From: a virus
Reading direction: 5' to 3' (one strand)
DNA: 31,178 nucleotides
IMG/VR virus record: IMGVR_UViG_3300017917_002411
Coordinates: 1 to 31,178 of that record
In this document: piece by piece, positions 11,364-25,586 of the stretch
How the letters are laid out: each line of letters begins with the position of its first letter
How positions within the stretch are numbered: the stretch's first letter is position 1
Position numbers and translations under genes: made by a program
Notes under the pieces: model-generated
The model's database searches: none
Seen by the model: the letters and a program-made list of their open reading frames with translations, nothing else
What the model was told of the DNA's origin: nothing

Positions 11364-12542
11364 ATGCCATACAGATCTGGGATATGGAGTCTAAATGAAG
11401 TAAAAGATAGAACTTTAGATGGTAACTGGAGAGCAGATTCTATTGTAGGTGAACCTGGATGTTTGCTAGTTTGGGGTGCAAATGAATGTGGACAACTTGG
11501 TGATGGTACTGTAATTCCAAGATCTTCACCGACTCAAGTTCCAGGAACTAACTGGATTTATATTGCCTCTGGTGATAAACATGCTGCTGGTATTAAAGCG
11601 GATGGTAGTTTATGGACATGGGGGGACAATAGTCTTGGACAACTAGGAGATTGTACGGCTTTTCCAAGAAGTTCTCCTGTTCAAGTTCCAGGATCTTGGT
11701 TTTCTGTGGGTGCTGGAGGGCAGCATACCCTTGCTGTTAAATCGGACCAAACTTTATGGTCTTGGGGATCTAATCTTTATGGGCAACTTGGGGATAACTG
11801 CGCCGCTGGAAATCTACCAAGATCTTCACCAGTTCAAATTCCAGGCACTAACTGGAAAAACATTATAGGTGGGTATTATAATTCATATGCAACAACAGTT
11901 ACGGGGCAGTTATATGGGTGGGGATATAACTGCTATGGTCAAGTTGGTGACAATACTGTACTTCCAAGATCTTCACCAGTTCAAATTCCAGGTACTAACT
12001 GGTGCGAAATAGGATCTGGATTTTATCATGCACTTTCTATTAAGGCTGATGGTACTTTGTGGTCTTGGGGCAATAACTATTATGGGCAACTAGGTATTGG
12101 AACTGCTTGCTTTAGTTTTGGTGGTGGTATTCAAGGTGCTGCTCCAGATAGATCATCTCCAGTTCAAGTTCTTGGAGCATGGTTTAAAACTTCTGGATCA
12201 CAAAATAATAGTTATGGAACTGATTGCAATGGAAACTTTTTTGCGTGGGGTCTTAACTCTGTTGGGCAAATGGCTGGCGCCGTAGGATCTGGAGCAAACT
12301 GTGGGTGCCGATGTATTGTTAACGCCGCTTCAACATGTTGGAAAAATGTTGTTGCTGGTGGTGCCAATCACGTTACGATTCTCTCTTGCTGCACTTTGCT
12401 ATATAGTAGTGGAAATAACTCTTGCGGGCAACTGGGTAGTAATAGTTTGGGATGCTCAAACGGTCTTGGTCAGAGAACGTCATTCTCAACTTGGACTACC
12501 ATTGCATCATTTGGTGATAGTACTTATGGCATTAAGTGTTAG
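11364..12542 (+). CDS. RCC1-type seven-repeat beta-propeller, virion-associated adhesin
   Basis: After an N-terminal SGIWSLNEVKDRTLDGNW segment of the kind that starts phage fibre tips, seven RCC1 repeats of about 50 residues each end in WGANECGQLG, WGDNSLGQLG, WGSNLYGQLG, WGYNCYGQVG, WGNNYYGQLG, WGLNSVGQMA and GNNSCGQLG. Most are separated by PRSSPVQVPG-type loops. Seven repeats is the number needed to close a propeller. RCC1 propellers bind proteins or nucleic acid in eukaryotes; in cyanophages they are found beside fibres and probably act as receptor-binding tips. The C-terminal third is rich in cysteine (CGCRC, SCCTLL). This is the only one of the three propellers with the canonical, His-poor repeat consensus. 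Two other propellers follow at 13379 and 16536. Confidence 0.85.
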   Translation: MPYRSGIWSLNEVKDRTLDGNWRADSIVGEPGCLLVWGANECGQLGDGTVIPRSSPTQVPGTNWIYIASGDKHAAGIKADGSLWTWGDNSLGQLGDCTAFPRSSPVQVPGSWFSVGAGGQHTLAVKSDQTLWSWGSNLYGQLGDNCAAGNLPRSSPVQIPGTNWKNIIGGYYNSYATTVTGQLYGWGYNCYGQVGDNTVLPRSSPVQIPGTNWCEIGSGFYHALSIKADGTLWSWGNNYYGQLGIGTACFSFGGGIQGAAPDRSSPVQVLGAWFKTSGSQNNSYGTDCNGNFFAWGLNSVGQMAGAVGSGANCGCRCIVNAASTCWKNVVAGGANHVTILSCCTLLYSSGNNSCGQLGSNSLGCSNGLGQRTSFSTWTTIASFGDSTYGIKC

Positions 12543-13378: not shown

Positions 13379-14635
13379 ATGAGTAGCATTAATATGCTGT
13401 CAAGGCATAAAAAAGGTCCATGGTCAATCAATGATGTATACGGTAGACTAAATTTTAAATGCTGGGGATATGAAGCGGCTTCTTCTGGATTATATGGTTT
13501 ATATGTGTGGGGTCATAACCCTCATGGCGAATTTGGATATGGTAGATCTGGAGCTCCAGGATCTAGTCATGTACCAGTTTTAGTTGGTGCAGTTGATTGT
13601 TGGTCTGGAACAATGACCATTGATGACATGGTGGGATGTTATTGGTTGATGTCAACAAAAACCGATGGAACGGCATGGGCTTGGGGTTTGAATAATCATG
13701 GTATGTTGGGAAATGGTTCATATTCTCCAGCATCTTCACCATCTCAAATTTCAGGATGTTGGAGATGTGTTTCTGCTGGGTGGTATCATGGAACTGGTGT
13801 TAAATGTGATGGAACCCTTTGGACTTGGGGGGTTAATCCTCATGGACAACTTGGTTTAAACTGTGATGGTGGTAGTGTTGCGACTCCTCAGCAAGTTGGA
13901 TCTGGTACTGATTGGTGTGCAGTTCATGCTGGACATCACCAAACATATGCCGTTAAATGTAATGGTAACTTATTCTCTTGGGGTCATAATGCTCATGGTG
14001 AAATGGGAGATGGGACAACGACTCCGAGAAGTTCACCCGTTCAAATTCCAGGAACTTGGTGCTGTGCCAGAGGTGGAAGTAGAGGAGTTTTTGGAAGAAG
14101 ATCAGATGGATCTCATTTTGCCTGGGGAAATAATCCTTATGGAAATTTAGGTACTAGTAATACCACTAACTATTGTTCTCCAGTATTGTTGCCAGGTTCT
14201 TGGACTCATGTATCAAAAACATCGTCTGGACATTGGCAAACAGCTGGAATTAAAAATGATAATACTCTTTGGGTTTGGGGACATTTACCTGCTGGGGAAC
14301 CTGGCAACTGCACTACTTGTGGTACAATGTCTTCACCACTTCAAGTTGCTGGAACTTGGTGTTGGGCGGGCGCTGGTTATAATGAAATCTTTGGTGTTAA
14401 AACTGATGGAACTCTTTGGGGATGGGGGCAAAATCCACATAGTGAAATTGATATTACAGCAACACCAAGATCTAGCCCACAACAAATTTTAGGAAACACG
14501 TGGAGAGATGTTGCTGCAGGACACTGGTTTGTTGTGGCAAGAACTGATGGTATTTCGCAGAAACAAGAAGGAATATGTTTTGAAACTTATCCTTCGGTTT
14601 GTTATCCATCTTATGGTGTTTGCTGTTATAACTGA
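13379..14635 (+). CDS. RCC1-type seven-repeat beta-propeller, histidine-rich variant
   Basis: In 418 residues the N-terminal HKKGPWSINDVYGRLNFKCW attachment-like segment is followed by seven RCC1-type repeats ending WGHNPHGEFG, WGLNNHGMLG, WGVNPHGQLG, WGHNAHGEMG, WGNNPYGNLG, WGHLPAGEPG and WGQNPHSEID. Compared with the first propeller, the consensus has changed to WGHNPHGE. His residues now recur at matching positions in several blades, and NP dipeptides appear. The C-terminal tail is short and Cys/Tyr-rich (GICFETYPSVCYPSYGVCCY). It is followed after 49 bases by a 2-oxoglutarate oxygenase gene. A receptor-binding role is inferred from family context. Confidence 0.85.
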   Translation: MSSINMLSRHKKGPWSINDVYGRLNFKCWGYEAASSGLYGLYVWGHNPHGEFGYGRSGAPGSSHVPVLVGAVDCWSGTMTIDDMVGCYWLMSTKTDGTAWAWGLNNHGMLGNGSYSPASSPSQISGCWRCVSAGWYHGTGVKCDGTLWTWGVNPHGQLGLNCDGGSVATPQQVGSGTDWCAVHAGHHQTYAVKCNGNLFSWGHNAHGEMGDGTTTPRSSPVQIPGTWCCARGGSRGVFGRRSDGSHFAWGNNPYGNLGTSNTTNYCSPVLLPGSWTHVSKTSSGHWQTAGIKNDNTLWVWGHLPAGEPGNCTTCGTMSSPLQVAGTWCWAGAGYNEIFGVKTDGTLWGWGQNPHSEIDITATPRSSPQQILGNTWRDVAAGHWFVVARTDGISQKQEGICFETYPSVCYPSYGVCCYN

Positions 14636-14684: not shown

Positions 14685-15284
14685 ATGAATAAAATAAACA
14701 GTCCATATGATTATATTAAAATCATTGCAAATGCAATTCCAGAAGAGCATTTAAAGATATTAAATGACTATGCCCTAAGTGAAAAACACGACACTGCTCC
14801 TGCATTAGTCGGATATGATGAAGATCAAAGTCCAAATCTAAACTATAGAAACACACATTGGATTGTTATACCAAGTGGTTTGAGAGAAAATATACAAGAT
14901 GCTATAATAAGTTTATATGATCGTATTTTAAAACCAATATATGAACGTGAAGTTGTAAAACTAGAACCAGTTCAGATGTTATATTATCCTTTAGGTGGTA
15001 AATACGATATACATAATGATGCCGAAGATTTTATCGATGGCAAACTTGAAAAAGTTGCGGATAGAGATGTTAGTATTATTTGTTATCTTAACGATGACTA
15101 TGAAGGTGGAGAGTTGGAGTTTCCTCTTTTGGGTTTAAAAATAAAACCAAAAAAAGGAACAATCATATCTTTTCCATCATATTACGAATATCCACATAGA
15201 GTTCATCCCGTAACAAAAGGTGAGCGTTTTAGCTTAGTAACTTGGATTGAAACTGATGAAAGAATTTACACAAGAAAAGATTAG
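14685..15284 (+). CDS. 2-oxoglutarate/Fe(II)-dependent oxygenase (prolyl-4-hydroxylase-like)
   Basis: The 199-residue protein has a double-stranded beta-helix core. The iron facial triad is H110-x-D112 (IHNDAED) and H174 (HRVHPV), with R181 (GERFSL) in the position that binds the 2-oxoglutarate carboxylate. The LNDDYEGGELEF signature (135-146) is typical of the P4H-like 2OG-FeII_Oxy_3 family. Members hydroxylate proline or other residues in proteins, or small molecules; such genes are common in T4-like cyanophages with mostly unknown substrates. It lies between the second and third propeller genes, so a virion protein is a natural candidate substrate (inference). The downstream gene overlaps its end by 29 bases in another frame. 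Confidence 0.9.
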   Translation: MNKINSPYDYIKIIANAIPEEHLKILNDYALSEKHDTAPALVGYDEDQSPNLNYRNTHWIVIPSGLRENIQDAIISLYDRILKPIYEREVVKLEPVQMLYYPLGGKYDIHNDAEDFIDGKLEKVADRDVSIICYLNDDYEGGELEFPLLGLKIKPKKGTIISFPSYYEYPHRVHPVTKGERFSLVTWIETDERIYTRKD

Positions 15285-16506
15285 TATTTTAAACAATATT
15301 AATGATAAGGCAAAAGAATTATTTGATCAACATGATTATTCTGGCGCTGCAAAATGTTTCGAACAGATTGATGAGGAAGATTTTCCAGAAGAATTTAAAA
15401 CTAATCTAGCCAGATGCTACTATTATAATCGACAAGCTCCTAAAGCTCTGGAACTTTTGGCATCTTGTAAATCCTTAGATAGTGTAGATGCACAGTTAGA
15501 CGTTGCCATTTATGAAAATGCGATTGGAAATTTTGATTTTGCATTACAAGTTTATGAAACTTTAGATCAGACCGATCCAAGAATCAGATTTAACATTGGA
15601 TGGCATTTAATGAGAAAAGGAAACTTTAAAAAAGCATTCGAACTTTTAGAAGAAGGTTCTAAATGTAGAGCATGGGGTAATGAATATATTCATCTTGAGA
15701 ATGGTAAGATTGATATAAAAAAAAGGTGGCACGGAAATAAAACGCAAACACTTTTATTATTTTTGGAGGGAGGTATTGGTGATTGTCTTATTTTTTTACG
15801 GTGGTCTGATTATCTTAAAACAAAATGTGAAAAACTTATTATTACCGTACCAGAAAAACTTTGTAGATTACTTTCAAATGCTGGATACTATGTTCTTCCC
15901 GATTATTTGATACCAACATTAGAATATGATCATTATGTTCCTGGAATGTCCATTCCTAACTTTATTGATGTTGATCATCCACTGGATAAAGTAACATTAC
16001 CTTACATTCAAAGTATTAGTGAACCATATATTACACGAGGAATGGATATATTGTCTTCTAAGGCAAATAAAAATTTAAAGATCGGAGTTAAATGGATGGG
16101 TAATCCAGAATTTGAACATGATCAGTTTCGGACAATTCCAAGACAGGCATTTTACGATTTAAATCGTTATGGATCTTTGTTTTCTTTGCAACTAGAAGAA
16201 AATGAAGATGATGATCATTTTATTCCATGTAGACATGTAATCAAAGATTGGCAAGATACTTATTCCGTATTTTCTGGTCTTGATTTGTTAGTTACGAGCT
16301 GCACTTCAACTGCTCATTTAGCTGGTGCAATGAATCTACCAACTATAGTTATGGTTCCACTAGTTTGTTATTTTGTTTGGGCAAATGATGATTTACGTTG
16401 GTACGAAAGTGTGACAGTTGTCCGCCAAACTAAATATAATGATTGGAGTGATGCCATAACTAATATGTATAGTTTAGTGGAATCATTTGCGAATAAATAC
16501 AAATAA
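15256..16506 (+). CDS. TPR-glycosyltransferase 9-like fusion protein
   Basis: The N-terminal ~150 residues look like tetratricopeptide repeats (AKELFDQHDYSGAAKCFEQI; TNLARCYYYNRQAPKALELL; GWHLMRKGNFKKAFELLEEG). The C-terminal ~260 residues resemble GT9 (heptosyltransferase-fold, GT-B) domains: FLEGGIGDCLIFLRWSDYL opens the first Rossmann half. GVKWMGNPEFEHDQFRTIP and the LLVTSCTSTAHLAGAMNLPT segment mark the second half. The usual VDTxxAHLAGALG aspartate is replaced here by Cys (SCTST), so activity or donor use may differ. TPR-GT fusions often glycosylate proteins, the TPRs presenting the substrate. The ATG at 15256 is chosen over an upstream TTG at 15247. It lies between two propeller genes. 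Confidence 0.8.
   Translation: MKEFTQEKISILNNINDKAKELFDQHDYSGAAKCFEQIDEEDFPEEFKTNLARCYYYNRQAPKALELLASCKSLDSVDAQLDVAIYENAIGNFDFALQVYETLDQTDPRIRFNIGWHLMRKGNFKKAFELLEEGSKCRAWGNEYIHLENGKIDIKKRWHGNKTQTLLLFLEGGIGDCLIFLRWSDYLKTKCEKLIITVPEKLCRLLSNAGYYVLPDYLIPTLEYDHYVPGMSIPNFIDVDHPLDKVTLPYIQSISEPYITRGMDILSSKANKNLKIGVKWMGNPEFEHDQFRTIPRQAFYDLNRYGSLFSLQLEENEDDDHFIPCRHVIKDWQDTYSVFSGLDLLVTSCTSTAHLAGAMNLPTIVMVPLVCYFVWANDDLRWYESVTVVRQTKYNDWSDAITNMYSLVESFANKYK
16492..16499 (+). promoter_or_regulatory. T4-type late promoter before the third propeller
   Basis: AATAAATA lies in the last codons of the TPR-glycosyltransferase gene, 36 bases before the propeller ATG. An AGGAA ribosome-binding site follows. Confidence 0.5.
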
Positions 16507-16535: not shown

Positions 16536-17891
16536 ATGGCGTTTCAACTACCACCAAAGGCTGGTACATTACCAGGTCCATTTTCGTTAAAGACATCAAA
16601 TAATCTAAACAAGATGTTTGATGCCATTAGTTCTGGTATTAATACGACAGGTGGATATTATAGTGCTGCCGACCCTAATGAAAGTAGAATGTATGTGTGG
16701 GGACATAATACTGGATCAATTCTTGGTGCGGCATTTGGTGAACAACATCCCCATCCAGGATGCTCCTTAGTTCCTATACAAGTTCCAGGATCTAACTGGA
16801 AAAATGTATCTATGGGTAACTGTCGTGTATTTGCGACAAAAACTGATGGAACAGCCTGGACATGGGGAAGTAATCCACATGGAGCTCTCGGAATAGGCGG
16901 TTTTGGCAATCAACTTTCATCACCAACTCAACTACCTGGAACCAACTGGGCAAGGCTTTTTGGATCATGCCATAATGGTTTTGCTGTTAAATGTGATGGA
17001 ACTCTATGGGCATGGGGACATAACGACTGGGGACAACTTGGACAGGGATGTAAAGGAACTCAACAGCTGGCTTCACCAACTCAAATACCAGGTACTAACT
17101 GGAAGATGGTTTCTGCCAACAGACACCATACCATAGGCATTAAATGTGATGGGACGGCATGGACATGGGGAAATAATGGTCACGGAGGACTTGGTGTTTG
17201 TTGCATTGTTTGTCCTTATTTTGGAACTTGTTGTACGCCTGTTTGCTTCTGTCCATCTGTTTGGGCATGTAATAATGGGTGGGTTCCTTGTTGCTCTGAC
17301 TCACTGTGTGTCTGCCCACACTTCAGCTCTCCAATTCAACTTCCAGGTAATAACTGGATTTGTGGTCTTGTTGTAGGCGGTCATACTACTGCTGGTCTTA
17401 AATCTGATGGAACTCTTTGGACATGGGGACATAATCCTCATGGCCAACTAGGATTGAATGATACCACCGAGAGAAATTGTCCAGTTCAAGTTCCTGGATC
17501 TAGTTGGATTGATATTGGTGGTGGTCAGGCACGTATGCACGCCAGAAGAACCGATAATAGTTTATGGGGATGGGGCCATAATCCTCATGGTGAAATGGGT
17601 GATGCAACGACGACACCAAGAAGCTCACCTGTTCAGACATTCTGTTCTGGAACAAACTGGATTAGAATATCTTGTAACATTGATAGCCATCACCAAGCGG
17701 CAACTAAATCCGATGGAACTCTTTGGACATGGGGATATAACCCTCATGGAGAACTAGGACGAGGTGCAACTGGCCCTTGCTGTTGTCCCGTTCAAGTCGG
17801 CGCAGCTACTTCTACATTTTGGACAGATATTAACACAAGTCATCATGGAACTGCGGCGATTGCTTGTGTTCCTTCAAACTATAGCTTATAA
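16536..17891 (+). CDS. RCC1-type seven-repeat beta-propeller with a cysteine-rich insertion
   Basis: In 451 residues the seven repeat ends are WGHNTGSILG, WGSNPHGALG, WGHNDWGQLG, WGNNGHGGLG, WGHNPHGQLG, WGHNPHGEMG and WGYNPHGELG. As in the second propeller, many blades carry His at fixed positions. Between repeats 4 and 5 there is an insertion with 12 cysteines in residues 222-260 (GVCCIVCPYFGTCC... CVCP), very unusual for a phage structural protein. Conserved loops read PGTNW and SSPxQxPG. The N-terminus (PKAGTLPGPFSLKTSNNLNK) differs from the other two propellers. It is preceded by a late promoter and followed by a GT25-like glycosyltransferase after 22 bases. Role: probable virion adhesin. 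Confidence 0.85.
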   Translation: MAFQLPPKAGTLPGPFSLKTSNNLNKMFDAISSGINTTGGYYSAADPNESRMYVWGHNTGSILGAAFGEQHPHPGCSLVPIQVPGSNWKNVSMGNCRVFATKTDGTAWTWGSNPHGALGIGGFGNQLSSPTQLPGTNWARLFGSCHNGFAVKCDGTLWAWGHNDWGQLGQGCKGTQQLASPTQIPGTNWKMVSANRHHTIGIKCDGTAWTWGNNGHGGLGVCCIVCPYFGTCCTPVCFCPSVWACNNGWVPCCSDSLCVCPHFSSPIQLPGNNWICGLVVGGHTTAGLKSDGTLWTWGHNPHGQLGLNDTTERNCPVQVPGSSWIDIGGGQARMHARRTDNSLWGWGHNPHGEMGDATTTPRSSPVQTFCSGTNWIRISCNIDSHHQAATKSDGTLWTWGYNPHGELGRGATGPCCCPVQVGAATSTFWTDINTSHHGTAAIACVPSNYSL

Positions 17892-19165: not shown

Positions 19166-19261
19166 ATGTCAAAAGAATATCTTATACATATTGGTACAGA
19201 GGACAAAATTTCATCTGTAAATATTGCAGAACAAATCATTCACGAGTGGAATAGGTTATGA
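19166..19261 (+). CDS. Small hypothetical peptide (31 residues)
   Basis: The frame ATG 19166 to TGA 19259-19261 encodes MSKEYLIHIGTEDKISSVNI plus eleven residues ending HEWNRL. It overlaps the next gene by ATGA, a translational-coupling arrangement, and has the ATG close after a promoter. It may be a leader peptide for the glycosyltransferase gene or a true microprotein. No homology recognised. Confidence 0.4.
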   Translation: MSKEYLIHIGTEDKISSVNIAEQIIHEWNRL

Positions 19262-20259
19262 AAAAAAATACATCATTTTTAATTAGTGGTGGGTCTGGCA
19301 GGGTTATAACTGCTATCCCAGCACTTGAAAAGTTTGCCAGATTAAATCCAGATGATGACTTTAAAGTTTTGGTGCATGGATGGGATATGATGTATTGGAG
19401 TCATCCTCTTTTACAAGAAAAAACTTTTGAGGTAAGTCAGAAAGGAATTTTTGAAAACTACATTAAAAATTATAATCTTGTTTCTCCAGAACCATATCAT
19501 GTATATGGTTATTATAATCAAGAAAAGTCACTTGCAGAAGCTTTTGATGAAATCATTAATAAAACTGATGACCATAGTGATTTAGATAAACCTAATCTAT
19601 ACATCAGTTATGAAGAAACTGCAAGAATAAAATCAAATATTGAATCTTTTAAACAGCAGGTTAATAAAAATAAAATTATTGTTTTTCAACCATTTGGAAG
19701 TGGAGCAAGACTTGAGGATAATCGGTTTATAGATTCTTCTGGAAGAAGTATGTATCCAGAAGATTTTGCAACTCTATGCAAACATCTTTCTCAATATGCT
19801 GGGATTGTTTATTTTGGACCACCAGATTTATTTCAATATTCTGGATGCTCTGATGCATTTTGTCCTCCACCAGCAATGACAGATTTAAGAATGTACATGT
19901 CACTTGTAAATGAGTGTGACTATTTTCTTGGTTGTGATAGTGTCGGCCAACACATGGCACGTGCGTTTGATAAAAAAGGACTCATTTTGATGGGATCTAC
20001 TTTTGAAAAGAATGTATCTTATCCAGACTACTTCAAATTTTATAGAAATAAAAATGTCAGAGTAAAATATAATCCAATCAGAATTGGTGGATTAGATTGT
20101 CAACTTGCAGACAGGACCAACGATGGTGTGATGAAATTTGATGAAACGCAGTTGAAAGAAATTTTTACAATGATTGGAGAAGATTTAAAGGATTCTTATG
20201 GAAAAGCACAAACTATTAGAACCAAACCAAAAAAACTTGCAAGTAACAAAGGATTTTAG
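19258..20259 (+). CDS. GT9-like (heptosyltransferase-fold) glycosyltransferase
   Basis: The 333-residue protein has a GT-B architecture. The N-terminal loop ISGGSGRVITAIPALEKFAR (7-26) resembles the GDxIMATPAL motif of ADP-heptose:LPS heptosyltransferases. A C-terminal domain includes IIVFQPFGSGARLEDNRFID (start of second Rossmann half) and CDYFLGCDSVGQHMARAFDK (about 221-240), which corresponds to the D(T/S)GxxHLAxAxG donor site. Donor may be ADP-heptose or another nucleotide sugar. The last ~60 bases overlap the CxxCxxCC gene. Its place immediately upstream of HldC- and HldA-like genes makes ADP-heptose the leading hypothesis. The acceptor is unknown. Confidence 0.75.
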   Translation: MKKNTSFLISGGSGRVITAIPALEKFARLNPDDDFKVLVHGWDMMYWSHPLLQEKTFEVSQKGIFENYIKNYNLVSPEPYHVYGYYNQEKSLAEAFDEIINKTDDHSDLDKPNLYISYEETARIKSNIESFKQQVNKNKIIVFQPFGSGARLEDNRFIDSSGRSMYPEDFATLCKHLSQYAGIVYFGPPDLFQYSGCSDAFCPPPAMTDLRMYMSLVNECDYFLGCDSVGQHMARAFDKKGLILMGSTFEKNVSYPDYFKFYRNKNVRVKYNPIRIGGLDCQLADRTNDGVMKFDETQLKEIFTMIGEDLKDSYGKAQTIRTKPKKLASNKGF

Positions 20260-20704
20260 AGACTGTGGTTCTTGTACAGAATGCTGTAAAAACTTATACA
20301 TTGAAGATGTATATGGATATACAGTAAAGCCTGGAAATCCATGTTTCTTTTTGTGCAACGAAAAAAAGTGTACGATACATGAAAATAGACCTGATGTTTG
20401 TAGAAATTTTCAATGCGCTTGGTCACAGAGACTTTTGCCAGAGTGGATGAAACCAGATCAGTCTAATATTTTAGTTTGTGTTGAAAGATGGGGTGAGTAT
20501 AAACAGCATCAAATGCTTAGGGTTTTATCAATTGGTGATGGATATGATGTCAAAACTTTTGCTTGGATTCTTGATTTTTGTTTAAACACTAAAACACCTT
20601 TGGCATATGAAGTTCCAGGGACTAAAGGTGAAATTCGTTATCTTGGAGATGCAGAGTTCTTAGAATCTATGCAAAATCAAAAATCTCATGGTAAGTTTTC
20701 TTAA
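20198..20704 (+). CDS. CxxCxxCC (YkgJ-like) cysteine-cluster protein
   Basis: This 168-residue protein has the cluster C23-GS-C26-TE-CC30, then further cysteines in NPCFFLCNEKKCTIHENRP and CRNFQCAW. These fit the YkgJ/FliB-like family (PF03692), thought to bind zinc or iron and, in FliB, to methylate protein lysines. No other domain is visible in the C-terminal half. The start overlaps the glycosyltransferase gene by 62 bases, unusually long, but an AAGGA at a normal distance supports the ATG at 20198. Its location inside a sugar-modification operon suggests a metal-binding partner or modifying enzyme. The next gene overlaps it by one base. Confidence 0.8.
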   Translation: MEKHKLLEPNQKNLQVTKDFRDCGSCTECCKNLYIEDVYGYTVKPGNPCFFLCNEKKCTIHENRPDVCRNFQCAWSQRLLPEWMKPDQSNILVCVERWGEYKQHQMLRVLSIGDGYDVKTFAWILDFCLNTKTPLAYEVPGTKGEIRYLGDAEFLESMQNQKSHGKFS

Positions 20705-21102
20705 TGACTAAAGTTTTTGTAAATGGGACTTTTGATCTCCTTCATCGTGGACACTTAGAACTTTTGAACTATGCCAAAAGTTTAGGGGATTTTTTACTAG
20801 TTGGTATTGATAGTGATGGCAGAGTTTCTGAAAAGAAAGGTCCAACAAGACCTATACATAATCAGGAAGAAAGAAAATTTTTTCTAGAAAATCTTAAATC
20901 AGTTAATGCTGTTGATATCTTTTCTACCGATAATGAGTTAGAAGAAATGATAAAATCTTTTAAACCTAATATAATGGTAGTAGGATCTGATTGGAAAGGT
21001 AAATCTGTGATAGGATCATACTATGCCGCAAAACTTTTATTCTTTGATAGAGTAGGTGATTATGCCACAACAAAAACAATTCAAAGTATTATTAATAGGT
21101 GA
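20704..21102 (+). CDS. HldC-like nucleotidyltransferase (RfaE domain II type)
   Basis: The 132-residue protein has the cytidylyltransferase-fold signatures: GTFDLLHRGHLELL with the HxGH motif, then SEKKGPTRPIHNQEERKFFL, which matches the RfaE domain II consensus around RP(I/V)xxxxER. It ends AAKLLFFDRVGDYATTKTIQ. Such enzymes transfer AMP from ATP to D-glycero-beta-D-manno-heptose 1-phosphate, forming ADP-heptose; the family also includes glycerol-3-phosphate cytidylyltransferases of similar length. The adjacent kinase with the RfaE domain I pattern makes the heptose assignment most likely. The start overlaps the upstream stop (TAATG), and the end overlaps the kinase gene. Confidence 0.8.
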   Translation: MTKVFVNGTFDLLHRGHLELLNYAKSLGDFLLVGIDSDGRVSEKKGPTRPIHNQEERKFFLENLKSVNAVDIFSTDNELEEMIKSFKPNIMVVGSDWKGKSVIGSYYAAKLLFFDRVGDYATTKTIQSIINR

Positions 21103-21820
21103 TAGTTGTATAGATGAATATGTTTATGGTGTAGTTGAAAGATTAAATCCAGAAGCACCCGTTCCCATTTTAAAATATAGGCGAACGGAAAAGAGACAAG
21201 GTATGGCTTGGAATGTCTATAATAATTTGAAAGCATTTGGTTTAGAAGTCTACATGATGACTAATGATGAGAAGATTATAAAAACCAGATATATTGATGA
21301 AAAAACAAATCAACAGATTCTCAGAGTTGATACTGAGAATCATTGTAAACCAATGGAATATGACATTCCAAATGAAAAATACGATGCGGTTGTAATCAGT
21401 GATTACAATAAAGGATTTATAACAAGTTCAAAAATGTTTGAGATTGTTTATAGTATGAAATGTCCAGTTTTTATTGATACTAAAAAAACTTTATTACCAG
21501 AATATAACTGTTACGTTAAAATTAATGAACAAGAATATAATAGACTGGATAATGAGTCTAAGAATAATAAAAACATAATAGTTACTTATGGAGATAAAGG
21601 ATCTGTATATGATGGGAAATCATATCCAGGAGAAAAAGTAAATGTTTATGATGTTGTTGGGGCAGGAGATACTTTTCTCTGTTCCTTAGTTTATTTTTAT
21701 TTAAAATATGGTAGAATAGAAGATGCAATACCTTATGCAAATAAGGCAGCAGCGATTGCTGTTCAAAATCGTGGAACTTACGTATTGACTCAGGATGATA
21801 TAAATGAAATATGTGGTTGA
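21062..21820 (+). CDS. HldA-like PfkB-family sugar kinase (RfaE domain I type), shortened
   Basis: The 252-residue protein reads like the N-terminal kinase domain of HldE: FKVLLIGDSCIDEYVYGVVE, RLNPEAPVPILKYRRTEKRQ, then GMAWNVYNNLKAFG (substrate Gly motif). The catalytic and anion-hole motif is VVGAGDTFLCSLVYF. HldA phosphorylates D-glycero-D-manno-heptose 7-phosphate at C1. It is short for the family (about 310-330 residues): the segment between NLKAFGLEVYMMTND and KTRYIDEKTNQQILRVD is missing about 40 residues compared with usual HldE. An in-frame GTG lies two codons upstream (21056); the ATG at 21062 is preferred for AGG spacing. The gene overlaps the nucleotidyltransferase by 41 bases and the next gene by 17. 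Confidence 0.85.
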   Translation: MPQQKQFKVLLIGDSCIDEYVYGVVERLNPEAPVPILKYRRTEKRQGMAWNVYNNLKAFGLEVYMMTNDEKIIKTRYIDEKTNQQILRVDTENHCKPMEYDIPNEKYDAVVISDYNKGFITSSKMFEIVYSMKCPVFIDTKKTLLPEYNCYVKINEQEYNRLDNESKNNKNIIVTYGDKGSVYDGKSYPGEKVNVYDVVGAGDTFLCSLVYFYLKYGRIEDAIPYANKAAAIAVQNRGTYVLTQDDINEICG

Positions 21821-22121
21821 TATAGACGGTACAATCTGTACAAATACTTTTGGTGATTATGAAAAAGCAGAACCTTTTGTGGAAAGAATCAAAATAATCA
21901 ATGATCTTCATGATCAGGGGCATGAAATATGGTATTTTACTGCAAGAGGTATGAGTAAAAATCCCCCGCCATCTAAAGCTTGTGCCGAGTGGTATTCTCT
22001 CACTAAAAAGCAATTAGATCAGTGGGGTTGTAAATATGATCATCTCTATATGGGTAAACCATCTGCAGATTACTACATAGATGACAAAGCTATTCAATCT
22101 GATTATTTTTTTAAGAACTAA
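21804..22121 (+). CDS. Small HAD-superfamily phosphatase
   Basis: In this 105-residue minimal HAD fold, motif I is DIDGTIC (residues 6-12). Motif II is FTARG (about 45-49), and motif IV is YYIDDKA (about 90-96). Its size and motifs fit the capsule/LPS-biosynthesis phosphatase group. In the ADP-heptose pathway a HAD phosphatase (GmhB) removes the C7 phosphate between the kinase and the nucleotidyltransferase. The motif I aspartates and operon position allow that role here, but GmhB proteins are longer and carry zinc-binding cysteines not seen here. Equivalence is inference. It overlaps the kinase gene by 17 bases and abuts the next gene. An AGGA precedes the start. Confidence 0.75.
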   Translation: MKYVVDIDGTICTNTFGDYEKAEPFVERIKIINDLHDQGHEIWYFTARGMSKNPPPSKACAEWYSLTKKQLDQWGCKYDHLYMGKPSADYYIDDKAIQSDYFFKN

Positions 22122-22766
22122 ATGGAAAACGATATAAAATATTTTAAGACAGATTTATTTCCAACTAGTGTTATAAAAGTCGATTTATCTGAACAGTTTA
22201 CACTCCAAGATCAACACGAGATGATCAAAGATATCGATCACTTGATTGATATTGGAATGATTGAAAATACTGGTTATCATCCGCTTTATCAAACAAAGAT
22301 TATCTTATTTAATGAAGATAGACCAAAAGTTTGGAAAAAATTAAAAGATTCATTTTACAATGCTTGTTATTTTTATTTGCAACAAACTCCAGAATATTGT
22401 GATAAACATACAATAGAAACTTTAAATCCTATTGATTCTCACGCTTGGGCTTTTAAGTCTTGGCATTCTTTAAATCAAAAACAAAATAACAATCCTGTTC
22501 ATACACATTCTCCAGCATACCTTTCTGGAGTTTTCTATTTAAAAATACCAGATAACTATAAAAAAGGAACAGAATTTTTTGATCCAAGAAGTTCGATCCT
22601 AAAAACAAATGGATCGTGTGTACTCGAACCAGATTTATTTTCTTGGATTATTTTTCCAGGATGGCTACCGCACAGAAGTTGTTTGATTGATTCTGAAGAC
22701 CCTAGATATACTATAGCTGCTAATATGTACATATCAGTTTATAGTAATCACAATGAACAAAGGTAA
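22122..22766 (+). CDS. 2-oxoglutarate/Fe(II) oxygenase, TIGR02466-like
   Basis: The 214-residue protein differs from the oxygenase at 14685. It has the TIGR02466-type pattern: H127-T-H129 with SPAYLSGVFYL, then FPGWLPHRS with H184 and PRYTIAANMYI with the Arg expected to hold 2-oxoglutarate. The iron ligands would be H127, H129 (in place of Asp in HxD) and H184. This family is abundant in cyanophages, and its substrates are not established. It follows the HAD gene directly (stop TAA then ATG) and overlaps an upstream ATG of the cupin gene by 14 bases, so it belongs to this operon. It may modify a sugar nucleotide, a small molecule or a protein. Confidence 0.85.
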   Translation: MENDIKYFKTDLFPTSVIKVDLSEQFTLQDQHEMIKDIDHLIDIGMIENTGYHPLYQTKIILFNEDRPKVWKKLKDSFYNACYFYLQQTPEYCDKHTIETLNPIDSHAWAFKSWHSLNQKQNNNPVHTHSPAYLSGVFYLKIPDNYKKGTEFFDPRSSILKTNGSCVLEPDLFSWIIFPGWLPHRSCLIDSEDPRYTIAANMYISVYSNHNEQR

Positions 22767-22770
22767 ACTA

Positions 22771-23127
22771 ATGAATGATGTTAAAATAGTTCCCAAAGGT
22801 TGGGGATTTGAAAAGTGGATCGTGAATAATGAAAAATATTGTGGCAAACTTTTGTTCTTCAATAAAGGTAAAAGATGTTCTTGGCATTATCACAAAATAA
22901 AAGATGAGACTTTTTACTTACAAAGTGGTCTCATCTCTTTATATTATGGGTGGGATGAAGATCTTGCAAAAGCAGAAATCTTAGTTTTAGAACCAGGAGA
23001 TTCTTTTCATATTCCAGTAGGTCTCAAACATCAAATGGTTGCTATGGAAGACTCTGAACTATTTGAGTTTTCGACAGAACATTTTGATTCTGATAGTTAT
23101 AGAGTTATTTCTGGAGATACTCTTTAA
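22771..23127 (+). CDS. Cupin-domain protein, phosphomannose isomerase-like
   Basis: This is a single-domain cupin of 118 residues from the ATG at 22771 (AAAGG lies 7 bases upstream; an in-frame ATG at 22753 is less likely). Cupin motif 1 is CSWHYHKIKDETFYLQSG and motif 2 is LEPGDSFHIPVGLKHQM; both include the metal-binding His pattern. The start KGWGFEKWIVNNEKYCGKLL resembles the beginning of sugar isomerases/epimerases (phosphomannose isomerase type II C-terminal cupin). In this operon it may act as a sugar isomerase or metal-bound binding protein. It ends 23 bases inside the convergent gene on the other strand. Confidence 0.8.
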   Translation: MNDVKIVPKGWGFEKWIVNNEKYCGKLLFFNKGKRCSWHYHKIKDETFYLQSGLISLYYGWDEDLAKAEILVLEPGDSFHIPVGLKHQMVAMEDSELFEFSTEHFDSDSYRVISGDTL

Positions 23128-23893
23128 CTGTTTTGAACTTATAATCTTTTAACCAACTCATATCTGCACAAGTATAAGTTTGGTATTTTCCTTTTAAATA
23201 GTCGGGGAATGGGATATATTCTATCTCACCCCCTTCTTTTTTTGCAACAAGTTCTGCAACTTCTTGAAATGAAATTGGAGAACCTGTTCCAATATCATAT
23301 ATGCCGCTAGGAGCGTTGTTATTGAGTACAATATCTACAACATCGTCTACACAAACAAAATCTCTTACAAACTGATCAGACCCCTCAAAAAGTTTGATTT
23401 TTCCAGTTTCTCTAACTTGTTTTGTAAACTTACTCACTGGACTTGCTTGATCACCTTTGTGATCTTCTCCTTCACCATACACATTGAAGTAACGGAATCC
23501 TTGAATCAAAGGAAACTGATTAATGTTATCTAATACACAGTAATCAATCTGTAGTTTTGATATCGCATATTGATTAAGAGGATTGATCTGCCCCTGTGTA
23601 TTTCCATACACTGAGGCTGACGAAGCATACTTCATAGGGATTTCATATTGCATGGCATATTCTAAAAGGAAAAGAGTAAATGCCACATTGTAATGATAAA
23701 TTGTGCGAATATTTTTTTCCGTCGTTGAAGAGATTGCTCCCTGATGAATAATCAGGGAGATTTTTTGCCAATCATCAAAATCTCTTAAAAATCTATATGC
23801 ATCATTAACATCTAATAGAAGGACATCATGATTAGACAATCGATCGCAAAAGTTTTTTCCAATAAATCCAGAAGATCCTGTTAATAAAATCAT
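23105..23893 (-). CDS. hldD: ADP-L-glycero-D-manno-heptose 6-epimerase (HldD-like)
   Basis: This short-chain-dehydrogenase-fold epimerase has 262 residues. It begins MILLTGSSGFIGKNF (NAD(P)-binding Gly motif) and has the active-site S..YxxxK as SSASVYG and YAISK. The HldD-specific stretch reads FRYFNVYGEGEDHKGDQASP, then VSKFTKQ, LFEGSDQFVRDFVCVDDVV. HldD converts ADP-D-glycero- to ADP-L-glycero-D-manno-heptose. It is shorter than bacterial HldD (about 310), mainly by loss in the N-terminal half. I take the ATG at 23891-23893, because an upstream ATG adds an unlike leader. One base separates it from the halogenase gene, with which it shares the minus-strand operon. The 3' end overlaps the convergent cupin gene by 23 bases. 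Confidence 0.9.
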   Translation of the reverse strand: MILLTGSSGFIGKNFCDRLSNHDVLLLDVNDAYRFLRDFDDWQKISLIIHQGAISSTTEKNIRTIYHYNVAFTLFLLEYAMQYEIPMKYASSASVYGNTQGQINPLNQYAISKLQIDYCVLDNINQFPLIQGFRYFNVYGEGEDHKGDQASPVSKFTKQVRETGKIKLFEGSDQFVRDFVCVDDVVDIVLNNNAPSGIYDIGTGSPISFQEVAELVAKKEGGEIEYIPFPDYLKGKYQTYTCADMSWLKDYKFKTVKEYLQK

Positions 23894-23894
23894 A

Positions 23895-25529
23895 TTAAAA
23901 ATGTTTGTAAAAATTATCGTATAGGTATTGCATTTGAGATGGAGATTCATCCGCAATTTTTTGCCATTCTTTTTGCTTTTCTTCCCACTTAACCATCATC
24001 TCATCAATCGTTCTCTTAGCAGATTCAACACTTGGTCCATATCCATAGAATCCATCATGGACAACATTTTCCATACTAACCACATTGTAGTTTAGACCAT
24101 TTAAAATGCAGTGATTACCAGAACGTAGATTGTGCTCATGAACGTGAGATTTTCTGGCAACAAGTTCTCCAAACTGGTCAACACAATACTGGAGTTCTAC
24201 TGCCTGATTGGTTTGGACATCATCAATCAGATATCCTGCATAAGATCTTTTTCTAACATCTCTCCAGTACTCGGTATCGTCTCTATGTGAAAGAGCATAA
24301 TGAACGGCAACAAACTTACATAGACCATCAAACATTAATCTTGTTGTCGCATTGTATGAATCAATCTCAAACTGATTATAATGATCTCTATCTATGTAAC
24401 TCACTAGTTTCATTAGAAATTCGTGAACGGTGTATAGACCTGTACTTTCCAATGGCTCAATAAACCCAGCAGAAAGACCAATCGCAACTACATTTTTAAC
24501 CCAGGTTTTGCGATGAATTCCAATACGCATGTTAATATCTTTGAACTCAAGATCATCTACGTTTCTGTTTGGATCATAATGACTCATTTTATCTGATTTG
24601 AGGTATCTCTTAAACTCTTCTAGTGCATTTTCTTTTGAGATATACTTATCAGAATAAACATAACCAGTCCCAATCCTTGACCAGAGTGGAATGTTCCAGA
24701 CCCATCCATTTCCTAACGCTATACAGTTGGTATATGGTTCCAGTTCTTTTTCTTTATCAGTATATGGTATTTTTGTTGCCCATGCTTTATTGTTTGGAAT
24801 AAGATGATCGTATGATAGGAAAGGTTCTCCCATTTCTTGCCCTATTAAAAGACTTTTCCATCCAGTACAATCAATAAATAAATCTCCCTGAATAACCCTT
24901 CCATCATCAAGGACAACTTCTTTAACTCCATTTTCATCTGATACGACTCTTTTTACTTCTGCAGGGATGTGCTTAACTCCATTTGGAACACACACATGAT
25001 CTCTTAAAAATATTCCAAACTTAACGGCATCAAAATGATATGCATTTGCGTGAATAAATGTATAATCTTCTAGTTTTCCATCTTCATTTTTGTTTATTTT
25101 GTTATTTTCAATCAGTGGCATGTGTGGATATATTGTTCTGCAATAATCTTCGGCGGGAGTATCTGGATAAAAAACTTTTTTATATTGCCAAGCCTTAGCT
25201 CCAATATCACCAAAAAGTTCTTTAGGAACCCATGGTCTACCAAATGGATAGTGAAAACCGCCAGCATCTTTTTTATAAAAATCGGTAAACTTGATGCTTG
25301 ATTTATACGATGCATCTGTGTATTTGAAAAGAATCTTTTCATCAATACCCATTGCATGTAACCAATAAGTAAAGTATCCTAGAGTGCTTTCTCCTACACC
25401 AACAATAGGAACTTTAGGACTTTCGATAACTGTTATATCTCTTTCTGGAAAAAATCTTTTTAAGGTTGTTGCTGAGAACCAACCAGCGGTGCCACCACCA
25501 ACAACGACAATTTTTTGTGATCTGTACAT
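23895..25529 (-). CDS. Flavin-dependent tryptophan halogenase
   Basis: The protein has 544 residues from the ATG at 25527-25529. The FAD site is VVVGGGTAGW (8-17). The lysine segment YKSSIKFTDFY corresponds to the catalytic Lys of PrnA. The halogenase fingerprint WVWNIPLWSRIGTGYVYSD (WxWxIP) is intact, and the catalytic-Glu region SAGFIEPLESTGLYTVHEF matches the family. The family oxidises a halide with FADH2 and oxygen and chlorinates or brominates tryptophan or an indole-like substrate. Such genes occur in some cyanomyoviruses with unknown substrate. It is transcribed divergently from the glutaredoxin gene, has its own sigma70-like promoter (25558-25586), and is operonic with HldD. A flavin reductase, which it needs, is not encoded here. 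Confidence 0.93.
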   Translation of the reverse strand: MYRSQKIVVVGGGTAGWFSATTLKRFFPERDITVIESPKVPIVGVGESTLGYFTYWLHAMGIDEKILFKYTDASYKSSIKFTDFYKKDAGGFHYPFGRPWVPKELFGDIGAKAWQYKKVFYPDTPAEDYCRTIYPHMPLIENNKINKNEDGKLEDYTFIHANAYHFDAVKFGIFLRDHVCVPNGVKHIPAEVKRVVSDENGVKEVVLDDGRVIQGDLFIDCTGWKSLLIGQEMGEPFLSYDHLIPNNKAWATKIPYTDKEKELEPYTNCIALGNGWVWNIPLWSRIGTGYVYSDKYISKENALEEFKRYLKSDKMSHYDPNRNVDDLEFKDINMRIGIHRKTWVKNVVAIGLSAGFIEPLESTGLYTVHEFLMKLVSYIDRDHYNQFEIDSYNATTRLMFDGLCKFVAVHYALSHRDDTEYWRDVRKRSYAGYLIDDVQTNQAVELQYCVDQFGELVARKSHVHEHNLRSGNHCILNGLNYNVVSMENVVHDGFYGYGPSVESAKRTIDEMMVKWEEKQKEWQKIADESPSQMQYLYDNFYKHF

Positions 25530-25557
25530 AAAGTAATCAGTTTTTGTTTTATGTGTT

Positions 25558-25586
25558 ATAATACTATGTATTCCACTAAAAATCAA
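25558..25586 (-). promoter_or_regulatory. Sigma70-like promoter of the halogenase-hldD operon
   Basis: On the minus strand, TTGATT (25586-25581) and TATTAT (25563-25558) are separated by exactly 17 bases and lie 29 bases upstream of the halogenase ATG. This is close to the bacterial vegetative consensus, so host RNA polymerase could transcribe the operon. Confidence 0.6.

Follow-up and report, generated by a model that had tools for sequence, protein, structure and literature searches.

A cupin as candidate isomerase in an ADP-heptose synthesis module of marine phages

The window analyzed here, the whole of IMG/VR virus record IMGVR_UViG_3300017917_002411 (31,178 bases), carries a compact cluster of genes resembling those of ADP-heptose synthesis. 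Judging by the psbD, PhoH, thymidylate synthase ThyX and tail-fibre-like genes also on board, its source appears to be a T4-like cyanophage. The window is a genome fragment, and the absence of a gene from it alone proves nothing. At one end of the cluster lies a candidate GT9-type heptosyltransferase (19258..20259, plus strand; phrog_8954, labeled as unknown function in PHROG), identified by its predicted fold. Further along the same strand are an HldC-like D,D-heptose-1-phosphate adenylyltransferase (20704..21102; TIGR02199), a short form of an HldA-like D,D-heptose-7-phosphate kinase (from an ATG at 21062 to 21820; TIGR02198), a small HAD phosphatase of the EcbF/BcbF type (21804..22121; TIGR01689), and a cupin (22753..23127) that we propose, from its predicted fold and active-site residues, to be a metal-dependent sedoheptulose-7-phosphate isomerase. 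On the minus strand follows an HldD-like ADP-D,D-heptose 6-epimerase (23105..23893; TIGR02197). Every open reading frame named in an initial annotation of this DNA was present where that annotation had put it; the cupin and a 2OG-Fe(II) oxygenase, both inside the cluster, had not been listed.

The initial annotation had proposed that the phage makes its own ADP-heptose, beginning with sedoheptulose 7-phosphate, and that a GT9-type transferase is encoded next to the synthesis genes. This proposal is supported by the enzyme families, by the catalytic residues of the epimerase and by the predicted fold of the transferase. Profile searches for RfaE domains I and II and for HldD placed all three enzymes best in the heptose families, and not with ribokinase, TagD or GalE. 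The HldC-like protein matched rfaE_dom_II (TIGR02199) best in NCBIfam (E = 1.1e-31, 109.6 bits), compared with 1.1e-19 and 70.7 bits for the TagD-type family g3p_cytidyltrns (TIGR01518). All 13 phage relatives also matched TIGR02199, and no other family gave a lower best E-value (3.4e-38 versus 1.8e-24); the HxGH motif is invariant. The kinase matched rfaE_dom_I (TIGR02198) best (1.8e-43, 148.9 bits); the next non-heptose family, ribokinase, was weaker by about 30 orders of magnitude (1.6e-13, 50.6 bits), and again all 13 phage kinase relatives matched TIGR02198, whose best E-value no other family undercut. Its best solved structure was Burkholderia cenocepacia HldA (4e84, 3.9e-27; runner-up 2.7e-10), and it has the stretches PEAPVP, NQQ..R.D and GAGD in common with HldE. 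A kinase of ribokinase type and a nucleotidyltransferase of TagD type were ruled out by these profile scores. The HldD-like protein matched heptose_epim (TIGR02197) at 3.3e-66 and 223.6 bits, as against 5.5e-13 and 48.4 bits for GalE, and the equivalents of Escherichia coli HldD S116, Y140, K144 and K178 (the Ser/Tyr/Lys residues and the second base, Lys178) are invariant in 10 phage proteins. By sequence, the kinase, nucleotidyltransferase and epimerase belong to the HldA, HldC and HldD families, and the base specificity of their nucleotide sugar would be ADP. To our knowledge, HldD has no role beyond ADP-heptose.

The predicted structure of the cupin (predicted local distance difference test, pLDDT, 95) matched the D-lyxose/D-mannose isomerases 7nzo and 2y0o best among PDB entries in a Foldseek search, with CapF between the two. 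By sequence profile, quercetin dioxygenase cupins slightly outscored 7nzo, over a shorter stretch. In the Thermofilum enzyme, residues K62, H75, H77, K86, E88, H143, E156 and D163 hold the sugar and the metal (PMC8378251). In an HMMER alignment to 7nzo, whose chain numbering is offset from that of the paper by 24 according to our own count, these eight pair with phage residues K32, H45, H47, K50, E52, H93, E105 and D112. All but the last are invariant in 53 cupin relatives; D112 is Asp in 39 of them and Glu in 14. The metal site has H45, H47, E52 and H93 as the H, H, E, H ligands, and the substrate residues of lyxose isomerase (K62, K86, E156, D163) are matched by K32, K50, E105 and D112 (D or E). 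On this alignment and model, the active site is of the isomerase type. By sugar stereochemistry, converting sedoheptulose to D-glycero-D-manno-heptose corresponds to converting fructose to mannose among six-carbon sugars. We infer that the cupin is a metal-dependent isomerase standing in GmhA's place, with sedoheptulose 7-phosphate as its likely substrate. The isomerase had initially been thought missing from the module; instead, a cupin of isomerase type lies within the cluster and, given its fold, its active site and its exchange with GmhA, probably supplies this step.

That exchange is seen in cellular genomes. A genome scan with the cupin profile found the cupin adjoining, or fused to, heptose genes in metagenome-assembled genomes of Woesearchaeota. 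We then compared cupin (at least 100 bits) and GmhA (at least 150 bits) among the HldA-bearing members of 237 genomes of the Woesearchaeota phylum; the cellular genomes compared here vary in completeness. GmhA was present in 0 of 15 archaea with the cupin versus 29 of 42 without it (p = 1.7e-6, uncorrected for descent). The corresponding numbers for HldA-bearing Binatia were 1 of 22 versus 56 of 75 (p = 2e-9, likewise uncorrected for descent), and the Binatia cupins form one clade, so the exclusion there amounts to roughly one event. Five archaeal genomes encode HldA-cupin fusions, while others encode HldA-GmhA fusions with GmhA in the same C-terminal place, and one genome (G003) encodes a GmhB-cupin-HldC fusion. 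Operons of the same order read either cupin-HldD-HldA-GmhB/HldC (G031, G042) or GmhA-HldD-HldA-GmhB/HldC (G127, G191); G105, with the cupin, and its nearest relative in the HldA tree, G210, with GmhA, likewise differ in their isomerase. On the HldA tree the cupin/GmhA label needs 8 changes, of which at least 3 are forced by supported branches, so the exchange happened more than once. Judging from these genomes, the cupin exchanges with GmhA in cellular organisms. Archaea of the Woesearchaeota type (L253–L264, L279–L308) hold complete ADP-heptose operons, with HldA-GmhA, HldA-cupin, GmhB-HldC and GmhB-cupin-HldC fusions among them.

In phages, the nucleotidyltransferase, kinase, small HAD and cupin occur together in all 12 records inspected (P-SSM2, S-SM2, S-SSM7, S-CAM1, S-CAM3, P-TIM68, S-T4, Sf-CH8, Sf-FS3 and three single-cell viruses), and the epimerase in most of them. 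Nine of these records are deposited as complete or near-complete genomes of 175–252 kb. Pattern scans of IMG/VR gave more than 570 confirmed matches for the cupin and for the kinase. Where 8 kb of flanking sequence was available on both sides, 39 of 39 kinase loci carried the cupin and the nucleotidyltransferase, and 31 of 35 cupin loci carried the kinase. Because the set is held by 39 of 39 kinase loci and by all 12 records, the clustering of the module is not due to chance. SIS_2/GmhA (PF13580) was absent from the window and from the 12 related phage records, in which the cupin is always present: the classical isomerase is consistently missing and the cupin consistently there. A GmhA hidden elsewhere in the relatives was considered and was not found in those records.

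The small HAD had initially been taken for GmhB. In NCBIfam and among solved structures it does not fall with the GmhB/HisB-type HAD enzymes: it matches TIGR01689 (EcbF-BcbF; 2.6e-11) at 43.5 bits, where the cut-off is 162, a further HAD family distinct from GmhB is matched weakly, and its solved relatives are PDB 9iqw and 1xpj. The HAD residues D.D, T, K and DD are conserved. The family assignment thus fell, and the function probably stands. Of the 25 viral kinase loci that lack the small HAD, 4 have a GmhB-like gene, compared with 0 of the 53 that have the small HAD (p = 0.009), and this confinement to loci lacking the small HAD fits both proteins doing the same job. The small HAD is thus probably a 7-phosphatase that does GmhB's work, with heptose 1,7-bisphosphate as the presumed substrate. 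PHROG and many phage records name it 'phosphoheptose isomerase', a label that its motifs suggest is probably wrong. We rejected an isomerase role for this protein, which has HAD phosphatase motifs and no SIS similarity. Two PHROG names, those of phrog_1238 and phrog_7851, look wrong, calling the small HAD a phosphoheptose isomerase and the cupin a cysteine dioxygenase, and both labels propagate into RefSeq phage records.

The product of the gene at 19258 matched no Pfam family, and profile comparison with GT9 gave a probability of 40% over 43 columns, which does not place it in GT9 by sequence profile. Its AlphaFold model (pLDDT 87) was more informative: the top PDB matches in Foldseek (E = 7e-10 to 3e-6) were the Veillonella GT9 protein 3tov, WaaF (1psw), WaaC (2gt1/2h1h) and TibC (4rap/4rb4), and the WaaC matches include a complex with an ADP-heptose analogue. 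The modeled protein has a GT9 fold, like the heptosyltransferases that use ADP-heptose, and it is probably the enzyme that attaches the activated sugar. Of the 58 viral loci with enough upstream sequence, 35 have a homologue no more than 9 kb away from the kinase. The initial annotation had counted a second GT9-like enzyme near the module, a TPR protein (15256..16506, plus strand; TPR by Pfam) with a possible GT9-like C-terminal half. This protein gave a weak match to the acceptor-side motif of WaaC/WaaF GT9 enzymes (37 columns, 62% probability), and neither its sequence nor that of the 19258 protein matched a transferase among solved structures. It was found in just 8 viral loci, always with RCC1-repeat genes. 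It is the 19258 protein that regularly accompanies the module, and the TPR protein is not an established part of it. In the window, RCC1-repeat proteins (Pfam RCC1 and RCC1-like domain) are encoded at 11364-12542, 13379-14635 and 16536-17891; these three genes are interleaved with those of a 2OG-Fe(II) oxygenase, the TPR protein and a GT25-family protein, in what looks like a separate protein-modification set.

In the pathway we propose, the cupin would convert sedoheptulose 7-phosphate to heptose 7-phosphate, the seven-carbon version of fructose to mannose. The HldA-like kinase would then phosphorylate C1, the small HAD would take off the 7-phosphate, the HldC-like enzyme would add AMP, and the HldD-like enzyme would invert C6. 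Finally, the GT9-type enzyme would transfer the heptose, with a protein or glycan of the virion as the most likely acceptor. We consider it very likely that the phage carries an ADP-heptose module starting from sedoheptulose 7-phosphate with the cupin in place of GmhA, a view that leaves the acceptor open. We also think it likely that the cupins are a previously undescribed family of sedoheptulose-7-phosphate isomerases, which repeatedly took the place of GmhA in archaea, in Binatia and in marine phages, and that cyanophages can thereby proceed on their own from an intermediate of the Calvin cycle to ADP-heptose and have a heptosyltransferase for virion proteins.

Several observations weigh against this interpretation. 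All three window enzymes fall below the equivalog cut-offs of their families (109.6 of 181.5 bits for TIGR02199, 148.9 of 345 for TIGR02198, and 223.6 of 274.6 for TIGR02197, where the N-terminal part is short); we therefore name them HldC-like, HldA-like and HldD-like and do not file them as HldC, HldA and HldD. Relative to HldE, the kinase also lacks a segment of about 30 residues. The role given to the HAD comes from linkage and one modest exclusion test (p = 0.009). Four phage contigs have the cupin without a kinase inside 8 kb, and phage contig L057 has, besides the cupin, a weak GmhA-like SIS gene (37 bits) next to a GHMP kinase gene. Among cellular genomes, the cupin coexists with GmhA in Binatia genome G356, the cupin archaea G054 and G105 additionally carry a SIS gene of lower score (87 and 117 bits), and many HldA genomes (13 of 42 archaea) have neither isomerase, probably in part through incompleteness. 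Cupins in archaea G012 and G013 and in Planctomycetota and Giovannonibacteria loci have no heptose genes nearby, and for this reason some members of the family may do something else.

Could the phage instead lack an isomerase and rely on the GmhA of its host, with the cupin an unrelated accessory such as a sugar-nucleotide-modifying or regulatory protein? Phage annotations do name the cupin a cysteine dioxygenase, some of its homologues lie away from heptose genes, and GmhA-like genes occur in a minority of Cyanobiaceae (35 of 151 genomes at any score, about 11 above 150 bits). Yet most hosts are without GmhA, the cupin and the kinase are inseparable in the 39 phage kinase loci, and the cupin has the full active site of an aldose-ketose isomerase; moreover, it takes GmhA's slot in operons and in fusion proteins, and genomes with one of the two tend to lack the other. 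We consider reliance on host GmhA improbable. Another possibility is that the module makes a related nucleotide sugar, for example from a pentose or hexose by the same chemistry. The sub-equivalog scores of all three enzymes and the deletion in the kinase would suit such a product, as would the carbamoyltransferase, transketolase-like and pyrophosphorylase-like genes added in some contexts. However, the epimerase keeps all four catalytic residues of HldD, for which we know of no other role, the kinase matches the HldA family 30 orders of magnitude above the next non-heptose family, the linked transferase folds like GT9 enzymes that use ADP-heptose, and cellular cupins sit with equivalog-level HldA in G002, G031, G042, G105 and G218. 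A different sugar is, in our judgment, very improbable.

The initial annotation had noted that the lipopolysaccharide of marine Synechococcus has been reported to lack heptose, and a review agrees: cyanobacterial lipopolysaccharide, including that of Synechococcus WH8102 and CC9311, is without heptose (PMC4515613). HldA-like kinases were found in 22 of the 151 Cyanobiaceae genomes. With few hosts having HldA or GmhA, and with their lipopolysaccharide free of heptose, the phage would for most hosts bring in a sugar that the cell does not make. Because host lipopolysaccharide has no heptose, the acceptor is most likely a virion protein or virion glycan. The pathway might instead modify the surface of the host cell, for example to block superinfection; this would alter only the last step and is compatible with all the others. 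Consistent with such a role, the module lies in glycosyltransferase and nucleotide-sugar clusters in S-SM2, P-TIM68, S-T4 and Sf-CH8. Against it, the genes that flank or adjoin the module in P-SSM2, S-CAM1, S-CAM3, S-SSM7 and Sf-FS3 are tail-fibre, neck or other virion genes. The heptose-free host lipopolysaccharide (PMC4515613) and the presence of TibC, a protein heptosyltransferase, among the fold matches of the 19258 protein also speak for the virion, and we regard modification of the host surface as possible but rather unlikely. A cupin encoded by the host was rejected: the sole high-scoring copy among the 151 genomes, in Prochlorococcus AG-409-P03, lies on a contig with a UvsX-like recombinase gene, which we read as phage.

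Two further genes lie within the cluster. A CxxCxxCC zinc/iron-binding domain protein (20198..20704, plus strand; PF03692, E = 4e-4, under the cut-off) was present in just 4 of the loci searched and is no constant part of the module. The 2OG-Fe(II) oxygenase (22122..22766, plus strand; PF13759, 2.2e-11) has close relatives in just 4 loci and is an accessory that is not conserved with it. Beyond the epimerase, 23895-25586 on the minus strand encodes a protein of the flavin-dependent tryptophan halogenase family (PF04820, 340 bits), and relatives of it are present in 23 of the loci retrieved for this module. In other phages, a NodU/Nol-like carbamoyltransferase gene regularly lies upstream of the module, often directly (L002, L003, L004, L006, L008), which suggests a carbamoylated sugar; the window has none. 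In S-SM2 (L005) and P-TIM68 (L007), the module sits away from tail genes, inside a large cluster of sugar genes that includes transketolase-like and alcohol dehydrogenase genes, joined in S-SM2 by aldolase and pyrophosphorylase-like genes. In L057 (8856-12527), the kinase-nucleotidyltransferase-cupin set is followed by the GHMP kinase, the weak GmhA-like SIS gene and a fusion of a HAD with another nucleotidyltransferase; this phage may have two heptose-type pathways. Phage-looking cupin contigs also occur in genomes labeled Prochlorococcus, Euryarchaeota, Planctomycetaceae, Rhodobacteraceae and Thaumarchaeota (L189, L176-L178, L182, L183, L235); L189 (QCKN01000003.1) is the AG-409-P03 contig with the UvsX-like recombinase, and the others have a phage-like module order.

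These findings suggest that the cupin would fill the sole gap in the phage pathway and that phage annotations attach the name isomerase to a gene that does not merit it. Should the proposal prove correct, the first committed step of making heptose would have a second enzyme, the cupin, that is unrelated to GmhA, the enzyme known for that step and a drug target. It would also explain how some archaea and Binatia with HldA and without GmhA could make heptose. The findings raise the question of why phages of hosts with heptose-free lipopolysaccharide produce activated heptose, and whether the sugar is present on their virions.

The phage ADP-heptose module itself is correct but not new, having been published in outline. 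Heptose genes of cyanophage SynMITS9220M01 were described in 2020 (PMC7378029); the cupin is unmentioned there. In related phage records, the gene called 'phosphoheptose isomerase' encodes the small HAD phosphatase, and the isomerase function has therefore probably been given to the wrong gene. As described in papers citing it (PMC11461863, PMC11573728), Tang et al. (Science, 2024) reported that heptose enzymes of viruses, archaea and eukaryotes can make ADP-heptose, and that the phosphatase is absent in viruses. Synthesis of ADP-heptose by viral enzymes in vitro agrees with the module proposed here; in those descriptions, however, the isomerase is counted among the standard enzyme types and no cupin isomerase appears. 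We found no report of a cupin as heptose isomerase in the literature searched, in which Tang et al. is represented by its citing papers, and the cupin step is, as far as this search could find, new. Compared with the standard GmhA/GmhB/Hld pathway, the phage kinase, nucleotidyltransferase and epimerase fall into the same families and keep the catalytic residues, but the phages have the cupin instead of GmhA, most have the small EcbF/BcbF-type HAD instead of GmhB, and the kinase, which is short, is separate from the nucleotidyltransferase. The 19258 protein resembles TibC and the GT9 heptosyltransferases in predicted fold, but is only 10-15% identical to them and has no Pfam GT9 match. The cupin, in turn, shares with the D-lyxose/D-mannose isomerases of Thermofilum (7nzo), Bacillus subtilis (2y0o) and E. 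coli (3kmh) the fold, the four metal ligands, the positions of the catalytic Lys, Lys, Glu and Asp, and the expected type of conversion, from ketose to manno-aldose. It differs from them in its low identity (18-26%), its shorter length, its gene neighborhood and its expected substrate, a seven-carbon sugar phosphate.

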